Below, piece after piece: positions 14,979 to 61,299 of a stretch of 64,000 nucleotides of DNA. The DNA lies in NCBI GenBank assembly GCA_019459485.1, contig JAIBEZ010000112.1, positions 1-64,000 on the forward strand, read 5' to 3'. Made by a program: the position numbers and the translations under genes. Under the pieces are notes generated by a model. That model ran no database searches and was not told where the DNA came from. It saw nothing but the letters and a program-made list of their open reading frames with translations. Source of the DNA: Prolixibacteraceae bacterium (GTDB lineage: Bacteria; Bacteroidota; Bacteroidia; Bacteroidales; Prolixibacteraceae). The stretch's first letter is position 1, and each line of letters begins with the position of its first letter.

Positions 14979-15383
14979 ATGGATTATAATGACAACAGTT
15001 ATTTGTGGGATGGGAAAACAGTTTTGATCGTTGAAGACAATGAAACGAGTAATATTTATTTTGAAGCTGCCCTCCGGAAAACAAAATCTCAACTAATATG
15101 GGCAAAAAATGGCCTTGATGCAGTTGAAATTGTTAGAAACAACCACGTCGATTTGATTTTGATGGACATCAATATGCCCAAAATGGATGGAATTGAAGCC
15201 ACCCGAATTATTAAAACCGAATTTCCGTCTATCATTATTGTCGTTCAAACTGCTTTTGTCCTTTCAGGTGAGGAAAAGTTATGCATGGAAGCCGGATGCG
15301 ACGAATTTATCACAAAACCAATTCGCCTGAAATATCTTCTTGATACCATCGATCATTATTTGGCCACAGTCAAAGAGAAATAA
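14979..15383 (+). CDS. Response regulator (receiver only)
   Basis: LIVEDNETS, LILMDINMPKMDG, ITKPIR; start chosen at 14979. Confidence 0.85.
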   Translation: MDYNDNSYLWDGKTVLIVEDNETSNIYFEAALRKTKSQLIWAKNGLDAVEIVRNNHVDLILMDINMPKMDGIEATRIIKTEFPSIIIVVQTAFVLSGEEKLCMEAGCDEFITKPIRLKYLLDTIDHYLATVKEK

Positions 15384-16567
15384 GCGCCAAATTGTGTCTC
15401 TTTATCAGGATCAACCAATGAAACAAAACCGGAACTTAGCTTCCCGTTTCTCATTTTTATTGGTTTTTCCAGAGTCATGTTATCAGCGAATCTCATGAAT
15501 TCGCCGCGGGAACCGTAAAAAAGCGCAAATTTTCCTGTTGTGCCACTATGAGTTTTCTTTTCAATTTGTGTTGTCAAAATCCCCATGTTCATCCTGCTGT
15601 TTATTTCTATGCAAGGCTGAATTTTCAATCCTTCTTTTTCTCGGTATATCATTGCGTCGATTCCTAAAAAACCACTGTGCAGTTTCGCATACACCGAGTT
15701 TTTCAGTGATTCTTTCAGCAACAGAGCCGTCGCACCGATTTTTGTCTCTATCTCCACGCTAATTACCTGAACGATTTCCGGGTGGATTAAAGTACTTTGA
15801 TACTGCCCATTCGAGTTGGTTTCGAAAACTGAAAATCCTAAATACTCAGGTTCATTGTTACTGATTTTAAACTGAAATGAAAAATCCAGTACTTTATCCA
15901 GAAAAGGCTCAGCGATAAGATATTTTTGCTGATTTAAAATTCCTGAAATCCATTGCTTATTTGATGTATTGAGTGTTGGTTTGCGGATAATCTGGATTCC
16001 TCGTCCGGAGGAACTCATGGGCGCTTTCAGAACCAGCGGAATATGCTTTTTCAGAAGTTTTTCAATTTCCTCAATGCTGTTGGCTTTTGTTCCGATCAGT
16101 TCCTGATCGACGAAAAATTCTTTGGGGTTTTGTTCCAGAAAGTCAGTCAGAAAATGCAGGGACGTAATTCGTTCAAACAATGTTTTGTGATCTTCCTTCC
16201 AGATATATACAGGACTTTCACGAAATTTGTGCGAACATTTTTCTTTCAGTTCTTTCAGGTAGAAGTGGGCAGCCGGACTCCAGCCCCAGGGGTAAATCGA
16301 TCCAATTGTTTCAGTTTTTCCTGAAATCAGTTCTTTCAGGGAACAAAATTCAGGCATTTCAAATCCTGCATCGGTTAATTTCAGTATGAATTCTTTGGAT
16401 GGCATTTTCTCAGTTAAAACGAAATCCCGCGATTTGCCGAAAACAAAAGGTAAAACAGAACAATCACGCTCAAATTCGCGCAGCAAGCGGGGCGGCATGT
16501 AGCTAAACGATCCGTTGGCAACTGCTAATTCGCAGGTTGGATTAAAATAGAAAACATCAGGAGCCAT
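15356..16567 (-). CDS. Hypothetical protein with ATP-grasp-like features
   Basis: 403 aa; PLVLKAPMSSSGRGIQIIRK ... EPFLDKVLDFSFQFKI ... QPCIEINSRMNMG. Confidence 0.55.
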   Translation of the reverse strand: MAPDVFYFNPTCELAVANGSFSYMPPRLLREFERDCSVLPFVFGKSRDFVLTEKMPSKEFILKLTDAGFEMPEFCSLKELISGKTETIGSIYPWGWSPAAHFYLKELKEKCSHKFRESPVYIWKEDHKTLFERITSLHFLTDFLEQNPKEFFVDQELIGTKANSIEEIEKLLKKHIPLVLKAPMSSSGRGIQIIRKPTLNTSNKQWISGILNQQKYLIAEPFLDKVLDFSFQFKISNNEPEYLGFSVFETNSNGQYQSTLIHPEIVQVISVEIETKIGATALLLKESLKNSVYAKLHSGFLGIDAMIYREKEGLKIQPCIEINSRMNMGILTTQIEKKTHSGTTGKFALFYGSRGEFMRFADNMTLEKPIKMRNGKLSSGFVSLVDPDKETQFGAYFSLTVAK

Positions 16568-16650: not shown

Positions 16651-16680
16651 TTTGATTTGTCGATTTTGAATATACATTTG
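16651..16680 (+). promoter_or_regulatory. Bacteroidota-type promoter (-33 TTTG, -7 TACATTTG) for sulfite reductase operon leader
   Basis: TTTG 16651-16654, N18, TACATTTG 16673-16680; matches TTTG/TAnnTTTG consensus. Confidence 0.6.
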
Positions 16681-16718
16681 CAGAATCAAAATAATAACAG
16701 ACCGTAAAGTGTTTTTCT

Positions 16719-16820
16719 ATGTGTAATTTTTCTTCTGAAATAGCAAAAATGAATTCTGCCAGCAACATGGATATGTGTATGTGGTTAAATTCTCAATTTC
16801 AGAAGATAGAAAAATTGTAG
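16719..16820 (+). CDS. Putative 33-aa leader peptide MCNFSSEIAKMNSASNMDMCMWLNSQFQKIEKL
   Basis: Short ORF between promoter and intrinsic terminator; 5 Met and 2 Cys with M-D-M-C-M-W cluster. Confidence 0.6.
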   Translation: MCNFSSEIAKMNSASNMDMCMWLNSQFQKIEKL

Positions 16821-16877
16821 GTGGATTTTACAATGATATTTACAAGCTCTTCTGGAATCCGGAAGAGCTTTTTTTTT
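16731..16877 (+). promoter_or_regulatory. Putative ribosome-mediated transcription attenuator
   Basis: Seg1 TCTTCTGAAAT 16731-16741 pairs with seg2 ATTTCAGAAGA 16796-16806; seg2 pairs with seg3 TCTTCTGGAAT 16848-16858; seg3 pairs with seg4 CCGGAAGAGCT 16859-16869 then T8. Confidence 0.7.
16845..16877 (+). terminator. Intrinsic terminator in 5' leader
   Basis: AGCTCTTCTGG-AAT-CCGGAAGAGCT followed by TTTTTTTT. Confidence 0.85.
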
Positions 16878-16895
16878 ACAATAAGTTAATAATAA

Positions 16896-17126
16896 ATGGC
16901 AGAGAAATCATACAGGAGCATAGCTAAATCGGTATCGTGGCGCACGATCGGAACACTTGATACCATTCTGATTTCGATGCTTATTACCGGAAAACTCGAC
17001 TTGGCTCTTGCAATCGGAGGGGTGGAAGTATTTACCAAAATGATACTTTACTATTTGCATGAAAGAACCTGGAACAGAATAAAATTCGGGCGTATTAAAA
17101 ATACTGGAAGTGATTATCAGATTTAA
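16896..17126 (+). CDS. DUF2061 small membrane protein
   Basis: 76 aa; SYRSIAKSVSWRTIGTLDTILISMLITG...HERTWNRI pattern of DUF2061. Confidence 0.8.
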   Translation: MAEKSYRSIAKSVSWRTIGTLDTILISMLITGKLDLALAIGGVEVFTKMILYYLHERTWNRIKFGRIKNTGSDYQI

Positions 17127-17139
17127 TACAACTAAAGTA

Positions 17140-17622
17140 ATGACGAAGAACTATTTGCCCATATCAATTGATATTTCTGATGGAAAAATACTGATAATTG
17201 GAGGCGGACACAGTGCATTGAAGAAAATCAGGATTTTACAGCGTTTTGATGCGAACCTTGAAGTTGTTGCCGAAAACATCATTGACGAGATTCTTGCAAG
17301 TGGAATTACCTGTTTCCAAAAACGATACGAAAAGAGTGATCTGAAAGGCTACCTGATGCTTTATTCGTGTACCAACAACGAAGAACTCGACCGGCAGATT
17401 GCACTTGACGGGAGGGAAGCAGGTGTTTTAGTCAACATTCACGACAAGCCTTCGCTTTGCCAGTTTGTTTCACCAGCTATCTATAAAGATGGAAATATTA
17501 ATGTTGCAGTAAGCTCAAATGCCCAGGACGTTTATGAATCCATCCGTTTACGCAATCTGATTCAGGAATATTTGGAAAAGGAAAAAGAAGGAAAAAGAAG
17601 GAACAGGCAAGGGCACAGGTAA
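17140..17622 (+). CDS. Siroheme synthase N-terminal-like (precorrin-2 dehydrogenase)
   Basis: YLPISIDISDGKILIIGGGHSALKKIRIL Rossmann motif; start chosen at 17140. Confidence 0.85.
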   Translation: MTKNYLPISIDISDGKILIIGGGHSALKKIRILQRFDANLEVVAENIIDEILASGITCFQKRYEKSDLKGYLMLYSCTNNEELDRQIALDGREAGVLVNIHDKPSLCQFVSPAIYKDGNINVAVSSNAQDVYESIRLRNLIQEYLEKEKEGKRRNRQGHR

Positions 17623-17698: not shown

Positions 17699-19474
17699 AT
17701 GACCATACAATTAAGTCCTTTAAATGAACAACAGTTAGGCGCTTTATCAAGTCTTTCGGCTGGATTAAACAGGGAACAGTTACTCTGGTTAAACGGCTAT
17801 TTTCAAGGATTGCTGGCATCATCATCCGGTGTACCGCCAGTCAATGTAGCTGTTCAGGCAAAAAGCAATAAAAAACTAACAATCCTGTACGGTACTCATA
17901 CAGGACGAAGCAAAACCATTGCAGGAAAGCTGTCTGAAAAGCTCGCCAACAAAGGTGTTGAAGTAAACGCCATCGCACTTGACGAGTATAAAACCCGTCA
18001 ACTTGCGTCAGAAACCAATGTGGTTTTCATCGTCAGCACGCACGGCGAAGGCGAACCACCGGCAATGGCTGAAGATTTCCACGCTTTTATTACCGGAAAA
18101 CGCTCCCCGAAATTACCCGGACTAAGCTACGCCGTGGTTGCTTTGGGCGATAAAAGTTACAAACTGTTTTGCAAAACCGGTATTGATATCGACCTTGCGC
18201 TTACCCATGCAGGAGCGCAAACCATTTTGCCCATTTTGAAACTGGATGTTGATTTTGAAGAAGATGTCGATCGCTGGATCAATCAGTTCGCCAATGTTTT
18301 TGCCGAAACTGAAGCAAGTTCAAATGTGTTTGAAAGTGTCAGTACTACTGCCAAAGTTCAGGAATACACCCGAAGAAATCCTTTTCAGGCAACTGTACTC
18401 GATAAAGTAAAAATTACCGGACGTGATTCTGACAAGGAAGTTTATCATGTTGAGTTGTCGCTCGAAGGCTCTGGCATAACCTATGAACCGGGCGATTCGG
18501 TCGGAATTCTGGCCAGTAATCCAACAGTTTTGGTCGATGAAATTTTGAGATTCAAAGGATTTGACGGTTCAGAAGCAGTGACAATTAAAGAAGATGAATT
18601 TTCAATTAAAGAGGCACTTTTAAATTACCTTGAAATTACTGTTTTGACCCGCGATGTTATTCAGAATTATTTTGAAAAAACAGCTGATCCAAAGCTTCAG
18701 GAAGTAATTGAAAATGAAGAAAAATTGGATCAATATCTATACGGACACGATGTTTTGGACTTGCTGGAGGAATTTCCGGCAGAACTGACTGCCCAGGAGT
18801 TGGTTCAGGTTCTGCGTAGTTTTCCTGCCCGACTGTATTCCATTTCATCCAGTCAACTGGCAGTAGGCGAAGAAGTTCACATTACCGTTTCGAGGGTTCG
18901 CTATTCAAGAAATGGAAGGGAACGTTCCGGCGCATGTTCAACTTATCTGGCCGATCAAATTGAACCCGATTCGCTTGTTCCCGTCTTCATTGAGAAAAAC
19001 CCGGCATTTAAACTTCCTGAAAATGAAGAAACTCCGGTCATTCTGGTAGGAGCGGGTACAGGTGTCGCTCCTTACCGGGCATTCCTTCAGCACCGCGAGG
19101 CCAGCAATCAGAAAGGAAAAACCTGGCTTTTCTTTGGCGAACGGCGGTTCAGTTCTGATTTTCTATACCAGCTTGAATGGCAAAAACTGATCAAAGACGG
19201 TTATCTCGAAAAGATTGATGTAGCCTTTTCGCGCGATCAGGAGCAAAAAATATACGTGCAGCACCGGCTTATCGAACAACAAAAAGAAATCTTTGAATGG
19301 CTGAACAAAGGCGCAAGTATTTACCTTTGCGGCGATATGAAACAGATGGCCCGGGATGTTCAGAAAGCATTGTTGCAAATTTTTGAGACGGAAGGTGGAA
19401 TGAATGAAGAAAAAGCCATTGAATTCCTGAAAAAATTAAAAAAGGAAAAACGGTTTCAAACGGATGTTTATTGA
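17699..19474 (+). CDS. cysJ: Sulfite reductase flavoprotein subunit
   Basis: flavodoxin YGTHTGRSKTIAGKL, FAD/NAD domains RLYSISSS, GAGTGVAPYRAFLQHR; C-terminal FQTDVY. Confidence 0.92.
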   Translation: MTIQLSPLNEQQLGALSSLSAGLNREQLLWLNGYFQGLLASSSGVPPVNVAVQAKSNKKLTILYGTHTGRSKTIAGKLSEKLANKGVEVNAIALDEYKTRQLASETNVVFIVSTHGEGEPPAMAEDFHAFITGKRSPKLPGLSYAVVALGDKSYKLFCKTGIDIDLALTHAGAQTILPILKLDVDFEEDVDRWINQFANVFAETEASSNVFESVSTTAKVQEYTRRNPFQATVLDKVKITGRDSDKEVYHVELSLEGSGITYEPGDSVGILASNPTVLVDEILRFKGFDGSEAVTIKEDEFSIKEALLNYLEITVLTRDVIQNYFEKTADPKLQEVIENEEKLDQYLYGHDVLDLLEEFPAELTAQELVQVLRSFPARLYSISSSQLAVGEEVHITVSRVRYSRNGRERSGACSTYLADQIEPDSLVPVFIEKNPAFKLPENEETPVILVGAGTGVAPYRAFLQHREASNQKGKTWLFFGERRFSSDFLYQLEWQKLIKDGYLEKIDVAFSRDQEQKIYVQHRLIEQQKEIFEWLNKGASIYLCGDMKQMARDVQKALLQIFETEGGMNEEKAIEFLKKLKKEKRFQTDVY

Positions 19475-19770: not shown

Positions 19771-21471
19771 ATGAGCGATAATATAAATTGGAGTGAATTA
19801 TCAGAAACTGAAAAAATTAAATACGAAAGCAACTATTTACGTGGCACGCTGGTCGAAAGTCTGGCTGACCCGATAACAGGTTCAATTGCATTTGCCGACA
19901 CGCAGATATCCAAGTTTCACGGAATGTACCAGCAATTCGACCGCGATCTGGAGAAAGAACGCAAACGTCAAAAGCTGGAACCTGCCTTTTCGTTTCTTAT
20001 TCGCGTTCGAATTCCGGGTGGGGTAGTGAGCCCGTCGCAATGGTTGAAAATGGATGAAATTTCGGAACAATATGCCAACCATACGCTGAAACTGACTACC
20101 CGTCAGACGTTTCAACTGCATGGGGTAATTAAAACCAACCTGAAGAAAACCATTCAGGCAATGAATGATAGTTTGATGGATACGATTGCTGCCTGTGGCG
20201 ATGTCAACCGAAATGTGATGTGCCATCCGAACCCGGCAGAATCGCCGTTACACGCTGAAATGCACGAGACTGCCCGCCGGATCAGCGAACATTTGCTGCC
20301 ATCAACTACTGCCTATCACGAAATCTGGCTCGACAAGAAATTGATTGCGGACAGCAAACAGGATGTTGAACCAATCTATGGCGACCGGTATCTTCCGCGT
20401 AAATTTAAAATCGCGGTGGTACTTCCGCCTTACAATGACTGCGATGTGTTTTCACAGGATTTGGGTTTCATTGCCATTGTTGAAAATGGAAAAATTGTTG
20501 GTTACAATGTAGCCGTTGGCGGAGGATTGGGTTCAACCTTCGGCATTCCGGAAGCTTATCCGAGATTGGCCGACGTAATTGGCTTTTGCCTTCCGGACCA
20601 AGTGCTTGAGGTGTCTGAAAAAGTGTTGCTCGTTCAGAAAGACAACGGAAACCGGCAAAACCGCAAGCTTTCCAGAATGAAATATACCATTGACAATCAT
20701 GGTGTCGACTGGTTTAAAAAGGAAGTGGAGAAGTACCTGGGTTATGAATTTCAGGAAGCAAAGCCCTTCGCTTTTATTCGCAATGGCGACCGGCTTGGCT
20801 GGAAAAAAGGCACAGATTCGAAATGGAACCTGACTCTTTTCGTTGAAGGAGGACGCGTTGCCGACAAAGGGGATTACAAAATGAAATCAGCTTTGCGCGA
20901 AGTGGCTCAAACTATTGCCGGTCAATTTATCCTGACTGGAAACCAGAACGTGATTATTGCAAATGTGACTTCCGAAGAGAAGAAGAAAATAAGCCTGATT
21001 TTAAAAGAAAACGGCGTTCTACCCGGTGAAATTTCAGGCCTTCGCCAAAATTCAATTGCATGTGTCGCGCTGAATACCTGCGGTTTGGCTTTTGCTGAGG
21101 CTGAAAGGTATCTGCCAATACTGATCAGCAAAATTGAAACAATTCTCGATCAGCACGGTTTGTTAAAAGAAGAAATTGTGATTCGGATGACCGGTTGCCC
21201 GAATGGTTGCGGAAGGCCGTATCTGGCTGAAATTGGCTTTGTCGGTAAATCAGAAGGTCACTACAACCTCTATTTGGGCGGAAATTTCATCGGAACCCGC
21301 CTGAATACCCTGTACAAGGAAACGCTTACCGAGGACGAAATCCTGGCCGAATTGAAGCCAATCATTGCCGATTACGCCGCAAATCGGACTGAAGGTGAAA
21401 AGCTGGGCGATTTTGTGATCCGCAAACAATACGTGAAAGAAACATTGAAAGGCTCAGATTTCAGACATTAA
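19771..21471 (+). CDS. cysI: Sulfite reductase hemoprotein subunit
   Basis: siroheme/4Fe-4S motifs CVALNTCGLAFAEAER and RMTGCPNGCGRPYLAEIGFVG; start chosen at 19771. Confidence 0.93.
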   Translation: MSDNINWSELSETEKIKYESNYLRGTLVESLADPITGSIAFADTQISKFHGMYQQFDRDLEKERKRQKLEPAFSFLIRVRIPGGVVSPSQWLKMDEISEQYANHTLKLTTRQTFQLHGVIKTNLKKTIQAMNDSLMDTIAACGDVNRNVMCHPNPAESPLHAEMHETARRISEHLLPSTTAYHEIWLDKKLIADSKQDVEPIYGDRYLPRKFKIAVVLPPYNDCDVFSQDLGFIAIVENGKIVGYNVAVGGGLGSTFGIPEAYPRLADVIGFCLPDQVLEVSEKVLLVQKDNGNRQNRKLSRMKYTIDNHGVDWFKKEVEKYLGYEFQEAKPFAFIRNGDRLGWKKGTDSKWNLTLFVEGGRVADKGDYKMKSALREVAQTIAGQFILTGNQNVIIANVTSEEKKKISLILKENGVLPGEISGLRQNSIACVALNTCGLAFAEAERYLPILISKIETILDQHGLLKEEIVIRMTGCPNGCGRPYLAEIGFVGKSEGHYNLYLGGNFIGTRLNTLYKETLTEDEILAELKPIIADYAANRTEGEKLGDFVIRKQYVKETLKGSDFRH

Positions 21472-21493: not shown

Positions 21494-22327
21494 ATGGCAA
21501 TAGAATCAATATCAATACTTGGATGCGGATGGCTGGGAGTGCCGCTTGCAAAGCATTTTCTGGAAGCCGGATCTACAGTGAAAGGTTCGGTTACTTCTGA
21601 AGAAAAGTTCGAAATGCTGCACGATGCAGGCATTTTACCCTACCGGATTGTTTTATCCGATACGGAAGTCATTCTGGATGATCCTGATTTTTTCAAGTGC
21701 GATGTATTGGTCATTTCCATTCCACCGCGCAGAATCGAAGATATTGAGCAGGTTTTTCCATCGCAGATCCGACGGTTGATTCCATTTATCGTGAAGGCTG
21801 GGATTCAAAAAGTGATATTTATTTCCTCCACTTCCGTATATCCCGATCAAAACCAACTAGCACGTGAAAGTGATATTTTGTTTCCTGATAAAGCAAGCGG
21901 GAAAGCGCTGCTCGAGGCAGAGAATTTATTGAAGGAAGAATCCGGGTTTAAAACCACCATTGTTCGGTTTGGCGGCTTAATTGGCGCCGACCGCAATCCT
22001 GCACGTTTTCTCCTGAAATCGGCGCAGCCAATAGCCAACGCGCCAGTAAACCTGATTCATCAGGACGATTGTATCGGAATAATTTCAGCTATTGTCAAAC
22101 AGGAACTTTGGGGCGAAACGTTGAATGCCTGCTGCCCTGAACATCCGATGAAAAAGGACTTCTACGAAAAAGCGGCCATTCAATCAGGATTACCGGTTCC
22201 GCTTATTTCCGAAGAACTTGCCGCCTTTAAAACCATCGACAGCAGCAAACTTATCCGGTTGCTCAATTATCAGTTTATCTATTCGAGTCCGATGGATTAT
22301 TTAGACCAGACCGAAGACAAGACATAA
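21494..22327 (+). CDS. NAD-dependent epimerase/dehydratase-like protein
   Basis: SILGCGWLGVPLAKHFLEAG Rossmann; FISSTSVYP. Confidence 0.8.
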   Translation: MAIESISILGCGWLGVPLAKHFLEAGSTVKGSVTSEEKFEMLHDAGILPYRIVLSDTEVILDDPDFFKCDVLVISIPPRRIEDIEQVFPSQIRRLIPFIVKAGIQKVIFISSTSVYPDQNQLARESDILFPDKASGKALLEAENLLKEESGFKTTIVRFGGLIGADRNPARFLLKSAQPIANAPVNLIHQDDCIGIISAIVKQELWGETLNACCPEHPMKKDFYEKAAIQSGLPVPLISEELAAFKTIDSSKLIRLLNYQFIYSSPMDYLDQTEDKT

Positions 22328-22443: not shown

Positions 22444-23178
22444 ATGTCCTCACTCATTTCCATAGTTGGCGCGGGTCCAGGCGATCCTGAATTACTTACG
22501 GTAAAAGCGCTGAAGCGTATTCAGGAAGCGGATTGTATTTTACACGATGCATTGGTGAGCGATGAAATTATGAATCTTTCAAGGCCTGGTGCTCAACGCG
22601 TTTATGTTGGAAAATTGTATCAGGATGGACAGGATCAGACCGACCGGCAAGAATGGATCAATCAGCTAATTATTGAATTGGCAGGAAAAGGACAAAAGGT
22701 GGTTCGCCTTAAATCAGGAGATCCGATGATTTTTGGTCGCGGAGCCGAAGAAATCCGCTTTTGCATTGAAAACAACCTGAACTACGAAGTAATTCCCGGA
22801 GTAACTTCAGCGCTTGGAGCCGCATCACTGTATGGAATCCCGCTAACAGAACGTGGCAAGAACAGCATGGTGCTTTTCGGTACAGGCCATTACTGTGAAG
22901 GCGATTTTTGCGACCTCGAATCGTTCGTTTCAGTCCTGAATTCAGGTTCACCGGTGATCTTTTTTATGGGGCTGAATAAACTTGTGAAACTGGCAAATCG
23001 TCTGATGGATCATGCTGTTTCCCCCGAAATAAAAGTTCAGATTCTAAGCAAAGTTTCGCAGCCCGATGCTACCACTTTCGAAAGCACACTCGGAAACATT
23101 GAGCAGCTAATGGCCAATGAAAAACCGCCTATGCCAGCGCTTGTTATTATTGGCAAAAATGCGAAAAAGTTAAGGTAA
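22444..23178 (+). CDS. cobA: Uroporphyrinogen-III C-methyltransferase (SUMT)
   Basis: SIVGAGPGDPELLTVKALKRIQEADCILHDALV; VVRLKSGDPMIFGRGAEE; VIPGVTSA. Confidence 0.93.
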   Translation: MSSLISIVGAGPGDPELLTVKALKRIQEADCILHDALVSDEIMNLSRPGAQRVYVGKLYQDGQDQTDRQEWINQLIIELAGKGQKVVRLKSGDPMIFGRGAEEIRFCIENNLNYEVIPGVTSALGAASLYGIPLTERGKNSMVLFGTGHYCEGDFCDLESFVSVLNSGSPVIFFMGLNKLVKLANRLMDHAVSPEIKVQILSKVSQPDATTFESTLGNIEQLMANEKPPMPALVIIGKNAKKLR

Positions 23179-59390: not shown

Positions 59391-61299
59391 ATCGAGTAGG
59401 AGAAACGGGATTATTTCCCGTTTCGTCCTCTCACACCACCGTACGTGCCGTTCGGCATACGGCGGTTCATAGAATTTAGAGCATTGTTATAAACTTCGGT
59501 AAACGAAAATAACCCAAGGTCTTTGAGGTAATTATTTGTCAGTGAACATGCTAAAATAGGACTATTGGATGTGTGCCAGTAGCCTTTTCTTGTATTGGCA
59601 TATTCCCACGCTTTGAAATAGTTGATGCCTAATTTGACAAGATTCTTATGTCTGCATCCAATTTTCTTCCATTGCTTCCAAAAACACATCCGTAACCTTC
59701 GGCGCATCCATTCATCAAGACGTTGGCAATGTTTTCGCATATCGGCGATCTTGTAATAGTTGACCCACCCTTTGATCAGCAAGTCCAAATCTGTTATTCG
59801 CTCCTCAATGCTTTTCCCATTGCTCCGCTTGGTATAGGTTTTAACTTTCGCTTTTATTCTGGCCAAGGTTTTAATATGTAGTTTCACCTTTACGCCATCT
59901 TTGGAATAATAAAAACTAAAACCTAGAAACTTTCGCTTGGTCGGGCTATCAACAGCACTTTTCGTCTGGTTCACCTTTAGTTGCAATTCCTCTTCGATGA
60001 ACTTTCCAATACTGGCCATTACCCTACTGCCTGCCCTCTTGCTTTTGACGTAGATGTTACAGTCATCCGCATATCGGCAGAAACGATGGCCTCTTTTCTC
60101 CAGTTCTTTGTCCAGTTCGTGCAACATCACATTCGATAATAACGGGCTTAATGGACCACCTTGAGGTGTCCCTTCGTCCGATGGACTGAACAGCCCCCCA
60201 ATCATTACCCCGATTTCAAATACGCCCGGATAAGTTTCAGTAAACGTTTGTCTCCTATCCTTTCGGACAAAAGGTACATCAGTTTATCGTGGTTTACCCG
60301 GTCGAAGAATTTCTCCAAATCAATATCAACTACTGTTTTATACCCTTCGCTGATGTACGCCTGTGCCTGTTTGATGGCTTGGTGTGCATTGCGATTGGGG
60401 CGAAAACCGTAACTGTGCGTGGAAAACTCTTTTTCAAATATCGGCGTCAATATCTGGGATATCGCCTGTTGGATCATCCGGTCGGTTACCGTGGGCAACC
60501 CCAACAATCTCACTCCTCCATCCGGCTTGTCTATCTCGACCCGCTTGACCGGCTGGGGTTTGTAAGTACCTTCCAAAATACTCTGCTTAAAACTTTCGCC
60601 TTGTTGCCGCAAGAATGGCAGAAGTGATTCTACCTTCATCTTGTCAATCCCGGGGCTGCCATTATTCTGTTTTACCCGCTTATAAGCTTCGTTCAGGTTG
60701 CCCCGTTCCAGAATTGTTTCAAGTAAGTACCTGGTGTTTAATTTGCTCTCGTCTTTCAATTTTGTTCCCGCCTTGGTATAGCTCGGCTCTCCTGCATTAA
60801 CTCGGGCTTCCATCCCTTCTTCCTGCTGGTAGTTCCGGAATTGTCCGGAATTGGCTGCTTTCTTTACTTTGTCCATGAGGATTACAAAATTTAAGACATC
60901 CTACGTTCTGCCCTTCTCCCGAGTAATCGGAGTACTATGGCTTCTGCTGACTTCTGACAGTTCAGTCACACATTACTGCATGGGTTGGTGCTTCTGAAAA
61001 AAAAACATCCGCACCGTTTCGGTCAGATCTCCCCGGGTAAGAACGATAACTTTCATCTCATATACCTGTTGCATTTACTCCAAAGGGTTCGGGTAGTATG
61101 GGACTTTGCTTTGTTGCGCAAGCTCGTCCACCCTTTGTAAGCCTTGATATGCACTTCCTGTTCGTCAGGCCGAGATTTTGCCGCTGGGCTTCCTTCAGAT
61201 TCGCAGTCACCCGCGACACCCTTGCCTTTGGCTAATGATTCCTACTACCAAGCTCATAGCGGACTTGCACCGCCAAGTTATCACCCATGCCGGGCGCAC
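59391..61299 (-). mobile_element. Group II (class IIC-like) intron
   Basis: 5' end GTGCGCCCGGCATGGGTGATAACTTGGCGGTGCAAGTCCGCTATGAGCTTGGTAG at 61299; domain V-like CCGCCGTATGCCGAACGGCACGTACGGTGGTGTGAGAGG at 59428-59468; encoded RT; 3' end about 59391 is inferred. Confidence 0.85.
59411..60876 (-). pseudogene. ltrA: Group II intron reverse transcriptase/maturase split by frameshift
   Basis: ORFs 60205..60876 (ends LIRAYLKSG*) and 59411..60205 (VMIGGLFSPSDEGTPQGGPLSPLLSNVML, YADD) join with 1-nt change at C-run 60208-60211. Confidence 0.88.

Follow-up and report, generated by a model that had tools for sequence, protein, structure and literature searches.

Leader-peptide attenuation is a classical mechanism. 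In the enteric trp-type attenuators (trp, his, thr, ilv, leu and pheA), a short ORF rich in codons for the end product precedes an intrinsic terminator, the leader RNA has the alternative pairings 1:2, 2:3 and 3:4, and segment 2 lies just downstream of the control codons. According to a 2010 paper, which itself described His leaders of Bacillus, no leader-peptide system had until then been shown beyond the Proteobacteria and Actinobacteria (PMC2965389). Cys-run leader peptides precede the cys operons of Mycobacterium and Propionibacterium and cbs of Bifidobacterium (PMC1262725; PMC9031893; PMC13236596). The mycobacterial leaders have no conserved terminator hairpin (PMC1262725) and are described as acting by translation attenuation through leaderless short ORFs; two papers cite them as shown to be Cys-responsive (Canestrari et al. 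2020, cited in PMC9031893 and PMC13236596). In Bacteroidota, the Trp-associated Bacteroid-trp RNA motif is known (RF01692; PMC2864571), and a 2021 transcriptome of Flavobacterium psychrophilum gave 'strong clues' that leader peptides attenuate amino-acid operons generally (PMC9723704). Both are candidate cis-regulatory leaders before amino-acid genes, but the operons of the latter are unspecified and the portion of its main text available to us contains no Met/Cys example. SAM riboswitches and Met T-box leaders also place Met/Cys genes under terminator/antiterminator control, through an aptamer or a tRNA-binding RNA.

The leader described here precedes a sulfite reductase operon of a Prolixibacteraceae bacterium and lies in a stretch of 64,000 nucleotides that was analysed as a whole (the window). 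Its elements and the genes that follow are listed below.

16651–16680, plus strand: presumed Bacteroidota-type promoter, TTTG ... TAnnTTTG
16719–16820, plus strand: putative leader-peptide ORF
16731–16741, plus strand: segment 1, proposed protector of segment 2
16767–16781, plus strand: control codons for Met and Cys (M D M C M), where the ribosome is predicted to stall
16796–16806, plus strand: segment 2, antiterminator 5′ arm, within the QFQKI codons
16844–16858, plus strand: segment 3, shared by the antiterminator (as 3′ arm) and the terminator (as 5′ arm)
16859–16870, plus strand: segment 4, terminator 3′ arm
16896–17126, plus strand: DUF2061 protein, opening the operon under presumed control (Pfam PF09834, E 4.3e-22)
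17140–17622, plus strand: siroheme synthase-type NAD-binding protein (Pfam PF13241)
17699–19474, plus strand: sulfite reductase flavoprotein cysJ (Pfam Flavodoxin_1, FAD_binding_1, NAD_binding_1)
19771–21471, plus strand: sulfite reductase hemoprotein cysI (Pfam NIR_SIR, NIR_SIR_ferr)
21494–22327, plus strand: NAD-binding epimerase-like protein (weak Pfam NAD_binding_10/Epimerase)
22444–23178, plus strand: uroporphyrinogen-III C-methyltransferase SUMT (Pfam TP_methylase)

The first-pass annotation had read this leader as a Met/Cys-sensing attenuator of trp type. It had proposed folding of alternative structures, a search for compensatory changes in relatives and a search of Rfam, and it had named lack of conservation of the ORF or of the pairings as a refuting outcome. 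The operon it had described (DUF2061, siroheme synthase, cysJ, cysI and SUMT) is recovered by Pfam, with the epimerase-like gene as an addition between cysI and SUMT. Like the enteric systems, the leader combines a short ORF rich in end-product codons, the three alternative pairings and an intrinsic terminator, with segment 2 just downstream of the control codons. Unlike them, its control codons specify Met and Cys and lie between segments 1 and 2, not within segment 1.

The ORF comprises 33 codons followed by TAG at 16818 and encodes MCNFSSEIAKMNSASNMDMCMWLNSQFQKIEKL. Codons 17–21 read M-D-M-C-M. Inspection of the sequence thus bears out both the ORF and the Met/Cys cluster at the positions first proposed. 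The leader is among the Cys-poorest of its kind, with two Cys codons, one of which is codon 2. Upstream, TTTG at 16651 and TACATTTG at 16673 match what we take from general knowledge to be the Bacteroidota promoter consensus; the match is not proof. From it we infer a transcription start near 16687 and a 5′ UTR of ~30 nt. The Mycobacterium Cys-run type is therefore not matched by this leader, with its inferred ~30-nt 5′ UTR, mixed Met/Cys codons and intrinsic terminator. No strong ribosome-binding site is visible on inspection, so translation of the leader cannot be read from the sequence. Apart from one weak match on the minus strand, nowhere else in the 64 kb does a strong terminator follow a short ORF containing a Met/Cys cluster. 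The divergent gene upstream of the leader (15356–16567, minus strand, 403 aa) has no Pfam match, and a group II intron lies at 59391–61216 on the minus strand (Rfam RF02001, RF01998, RF00029).

The three pairings exclude one another. Segment 1, TCTTCTGAAAT, is complementary to segment 2, ATTTCAGAAGA, at 11/11 positions (−12.2 kcal/mol as an isolated duplex), and segment 2 pairs with segment 3 by 10 Watson-Crick pairs and one G-U (11 pairs, −11.7 kcal/mol), both as first described. The terminator with its T run also stands, but its boundaries had to be moved. The 5′ arm starts four bases earlier than had been drawn, and the last three bases assigned to segment 3 form the loop. The stem has 12 pairs (16844–16855 with 16859–16870) around the loop AAT, followed by the T run to about 16878.

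Compared with dinucleotide shuffles, the 196-nt leader is more stable by 4 sd, and the terminator is within the minimum-free-energy structure in every complete fold. In stepwise folding without a ribosome, 1:2 forms first and then 3:4. With a ribosome at the Cys codon and all upstream RNA blocked, 2:3 is dominant at transcript ends 16855–16865, before segment 4 is completed, while a ribosome at the stop codon gives 3:4. A difficulty raised at the outset persists, because segment 1 lies outside the footprint of the stalled ribosome. When only the footprint is blocked, 1:2 dominates the equilibrium ensemble at transcript end 16858 (10.4 versus 2.1 expected pairs for 2:3), although the lowest-energy structure is 2:3. 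A ribosome stalled inside the 1:2 loop must therefore hinder this pairing sterically (by strain), kinetically (by timing) or through a trailing ribosome.

DUF2061 relatives were sampled from named genomes and from 141 genomes of the GTDB family of the window. This gave 55 distinct leaders upstream of DUF2061, one from an Ignavibacteriae MAG (L036) and 54 from the family or its close named relatives (Prolixibacteraceae, Draconibacterium and Sunxiuqinia). With L036 and the divergent L140 excluded, 53 leaders were measured. Every listed leader has a short ORF in which Met and Cys cluster (MCMCMC, MMCMCC and the like), a terminator of the CCCTTCTG..CAGAAGGG type was detected before DUF2061 in nearly all, and the promoter pattern recurs at matching distance in many relatives. 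In the leaders 16.6% of residues are Met and 12.1% are Cys, whereas the neighbouring genes have 2.1% and 1.1%. Of 121 ATGTGY hexamers, 120 are in the frame of the leader ORF. Codons in segment 2 are CAG (49/49) and AAG (40/41), against a preference elsewhere in the leaders for CAA over CAG (12:4) and AAA over AAG (85:20). The spacer from the stop to segment 3 occupies all three phases (15/15/23). These features are those of a translated ORF under a superimposed RNA constraint; translation itself is inferred, as there are no translation data.

In the 53 leaders, the last Met/Cys codon precedes the start of segment 2 by 12–21 nt (mean 17.6), and segment 2 precedes the stop by 9–21 nt. When the last control codon occupies its A site, a ribosome shields some 12 nt of the RNA downstream, so segment 2 is expected to be free during a stall and covered when the ribosome is at the stop. 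The geometry predicted beforehand, in which a stalled ribosome spares segment 2 and one at the stop codon covers part of it, agrees with these distances.

For covariation, anchors were placed independently of pairing and slid registers served as control. The 2:3 pairs are formed in 97.9% of cells versus 40–64% in slid registers (at most 63.5%), and the 1:2 pairs in 84.1% versus 42–61% (at most 61.1%). The compensatory changes that were sought are seen in 2:3 across the family, at both ends of the pairing. One outer pair alternates between G-C, G-U, U-G and U-A (paired in 46/48), the other between G-C, A-U and G-U (45/48), with compensatory exchanges G-C/T-A and G-C/A-T. In one clade, a segment 1:segment 2 pair runs through the series T-A, T-G, C-G. 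For each of 1:2, 2:3 and 3:4, pairing is also stronger between the segments of one leader than between segments exchanged among genomes, and none of 2000 permutations equals the observed value; as the permutations ignore relatedness, this is supporting evidence only. The refuting outcome was thus sought and not found: the ORF, the cluster, the position of segment 2 and the 2:3 and 3:4 pairings are conserved family-wide.

These data bear on whether translation is involved at all. Two readings without translation, a constitutive intrinsic terminator behind an ORF that arose by chance and a 5′ UTR structure recognised by a protein or ligand, would fit the terminator in every complete minimum-free-energy fold and the lack of a visible strong ribosome-binding site. 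They would not account for the frame, the codon composition, the synonymous constraint, the spacing of segment 2 or the occurrence on the operon strand only (below). No Rfam family matches the leaders scanned: at gathering score, neither the leader of the window nor those in ten other loci had a hit, and no SAM riboswitch or Met T-box was found at them. We consider an explanation without translation very improbable. A chance ORF with a plain terminator is rejected on frame, codons, synonymous constraint, spacing and strand bias.

The Met/Cys-rich nascent peptide might instead be the sensor itself, as an arrest peptide responding to copper, zinc or thiol stress and working the same RNA switch. 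Met/Cys motifs can bind soft metals. A nascent-protein copper sensor is reported in another system (PMC9973294). However, the residues differ in number and order from leader to leader (MCMCMC, MMCMCC, CCCCC, MMMCMM), as would not be expected of a fixed binding site, and outside the cluster the choice of residues obeys RNA constraints. The downstream genes that were identified serve sulfur amino-acid synthesis, with none for metal handling. A peptide sensor appears very unlikely to us, if slightly less so than a switch without translation.

We conclude that the leader is very likely a trp-type ribosome-mediated attenuator sensing charged tRNA-Met and tRNA-Cys. This rests on what is observed: the architecture, how it is conserved and covaries, the constraint on frame and codons, the spacing, and the reappearance of the design ahead of sulfur amino-acid genes; there are no expression data. 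With both charged tRNAs ample, the ribosome would pass the cluster, reach the stop and cover segment 2. Segments 3 and 4 would then pair, and RNA polymerase would terminate before the DUF2061-siroheme-cysJ-cysI operon. If either charged tRNA is short, the ribosome is predicted to stall at the cluster, its leading edge not quite reaching segment 2, which could capture segment 3 before segment 4 is made. No terminator would form, and the operon, which makes sulfide for Cys and Met, would be transcribed. Without translation, 1:2 should form and termination would be the default. The aminoacyl-tRNA signal, the contribution of both amino acids and the kinetics are inferred.

Leaders of like architecture occur in family genomes where DUF2061 opens the operon. 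Where DUF2061 is internal to another operon, no leader is found directly before it, and in Prolixibacter denitrificans the leader is at the operon start, before cysD (L031). Two cultivable carriers are P. denitrificans DSM 27267, whose leader spans L031:1593-1688, and Draconibacterium aestuarii Z1-6, with its leader at L025:3714-3812. The assembly of the window contains a second cys operon (G000:C16:22258-24485; L111, L171), with a CysI 84% identical and its own Met/Cys leader MSQFSSEIVLMNSDSAMCANMYMCMCSHLSFQKVNRI. It is either a paralog or a contaminant contig from a sister species (assembly contamination 3.67%). In the same genome, ATGTGYATGTGY has a leader-like context only at this second copy (L151), a search of CTTCTG-type terminators found no leader but this one, and no Met/Cys leader lies within the 9–14 kb surrounding the metY-like and cysD-like genes. 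The strict pattern TGTATGTGY...CAGARG...CTTCTG, searched in 297 genomes of the class, has no match outside the genome of the window, because segment 2 and 3 sequences differ between families. What is conserved is the design, not the sequence.

A detector requiring a short ORF, a Met/Cys cluster and a strong terminator gave 15 matches on the operon strand of 80 DUF2061 loci and none on the opposite strand. Among these matches, the Ignavibacteriae leader (L036) precedes DUF2061-cysH-cysD, and Flavobacteriales leaders lie between cysN and sulfite reductase (L058, L067, L068). A further sample took sulfite-reductase loci from genomes across the phylum. Leaders precede sulfite reductase in L225, L228, L230 and L232, cysH in L227 and L231, and a rhodanese-like gene with CysI in L169 and L170. 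Two leaders in series precede cysH-cysD-cysN in L166 and metY in both L207 and L248; in L248, metY is followed by an OsmC-like gene, an alpha/beta-hydrolase (metX-like) and homoserine dehydrogenase, with a metH-like gene next. The tandem leaders (L166:4246-4577, L207:2675-3060 and L248:222-501) are complete, with separate terminators, and are possibly two-stage attenuators. Another leader, at L165:7379, has a SAM-II riboswitch about 250 nt away on the opposite strand (L165:7045-7124, minus strand), so that two sulfur sensors adjoin. Among 128 sulfur-gene loci, Cys/Met is the commonest residue pair, with 29 loci on the operon strand and none on the opposite strand; shuffled residues would give 0.2.

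In 20 such leaders, the sequence that follows the cluster pairs with the 5′ arm of the terminator at a mean of −12.0 kcal/mol, versus −6.8 kcal/mol when shuffled. The segment 2/segment 3 sequences differ (CAGAAG/CTTCTG, CAAGAGG/CCTCTTG, GAGGGGTT/AACTCCTC and GGTAGTGG/CCACTACC), and the architecture thus recurs with unrelated sequences in other classes. By the binding-energy criterion L230, L232 and L241 show no convincing 2:3 pairing; segment 2 of L031 lies outside the stretch searched. Most of 40 wide sulfite-reductase regions have no such leader within the fetched region, so that the device, though widespread, is by no means universal. In many of the Flavobacteriia loci L026–L045, DUF2061 is preceded not by a leader but by an apparent C-terminal fragment of a regulator resembling Rrf2 (Pfam Rrf2, below cut-off); such a protein regulator possibly stands in for the attenuator.

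The leaders outside the family also help in judging which amino acid is sensed. The same switch could respond to one amino acid only, most likely Cys, with the other codons carried along or tuning ribosome speed. Cys is the rarer residue and the direct product of sulfide, the mycobacterial cys-operon leaders use Cys runs only, and some distant leaders (e.g. L225 and L228) are Cys-dominated. Against this, every one of the 53 family leaders carries three or more Met in addition to the start and 52 carry two or more Cys, leaders outside the family mix Met and Cys too, and Met dominates the second of the two leaders ahead of metY in L207. Sensing of one amino acid remains possible, though we think it unlikely; that Met and Cys are both sensed, rather than Cys alone, is somewhat less certain than the attenuation mechanism itself.

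Taken at the level of the phylum, we lean towards a Met/Cys leader-peptide regulon in several GTDB classes of Bacteroidota, covering sulfate/sulfite reduction (cysH, cysDN, cysJI and the other sulfite reductase) and methionine synthesis (the metY operon), in which leaders would share design but not sequence and tandems would give a steeper or two-signal response. Leaders before sulfur assimilation genes, sometimes two in tandem, distinguish this system from the enteric one. Cys-codon ORFs before cysteine genes also occur in Actinobacteria, an unrelated phylum, but as Cys runs rather than mixed Met/Cys clusters, and a predicted translated ORF takes the place of the aptamer or tRNA-binding RNA of SAM riboswitches and Met T-box leaders. 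In the open literature (subscription papers and supplements were outside the search) we found no description of a Met/Cys leader with an intrinsic terminator in Bacteroidota. The initial statement that no such attenuator is described there accordingly held in this search for the Met/Cys specificity but is too strong for leader-peptide attenuation generally, in view of the F. psychrophilum study (PMC9723704) and the Bacteroid-trp motif. Attenuation as such and actinobacterial Cys leader peptides are known.

Little was found on how Bacteroidota control sulfur amino-acid synthesis, and the attenuator offers a concrete switch with single-codon predictions. The pair of control amino acids is unusual in that both, Met and Cys, are products of the pathway, and the terminator-based cysteine attenuator contrasts with the terminator-less cysteine leaders of mycobacteria. 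That unrelated sequences carry the same design suggests either that it was invented repeatedly or that sequences drift fast while the logic stays constant. Since Rfam models need shared sequence or structure, such leaders escape them, and many more may be hidden before operons of the phylum Bacteroidota.
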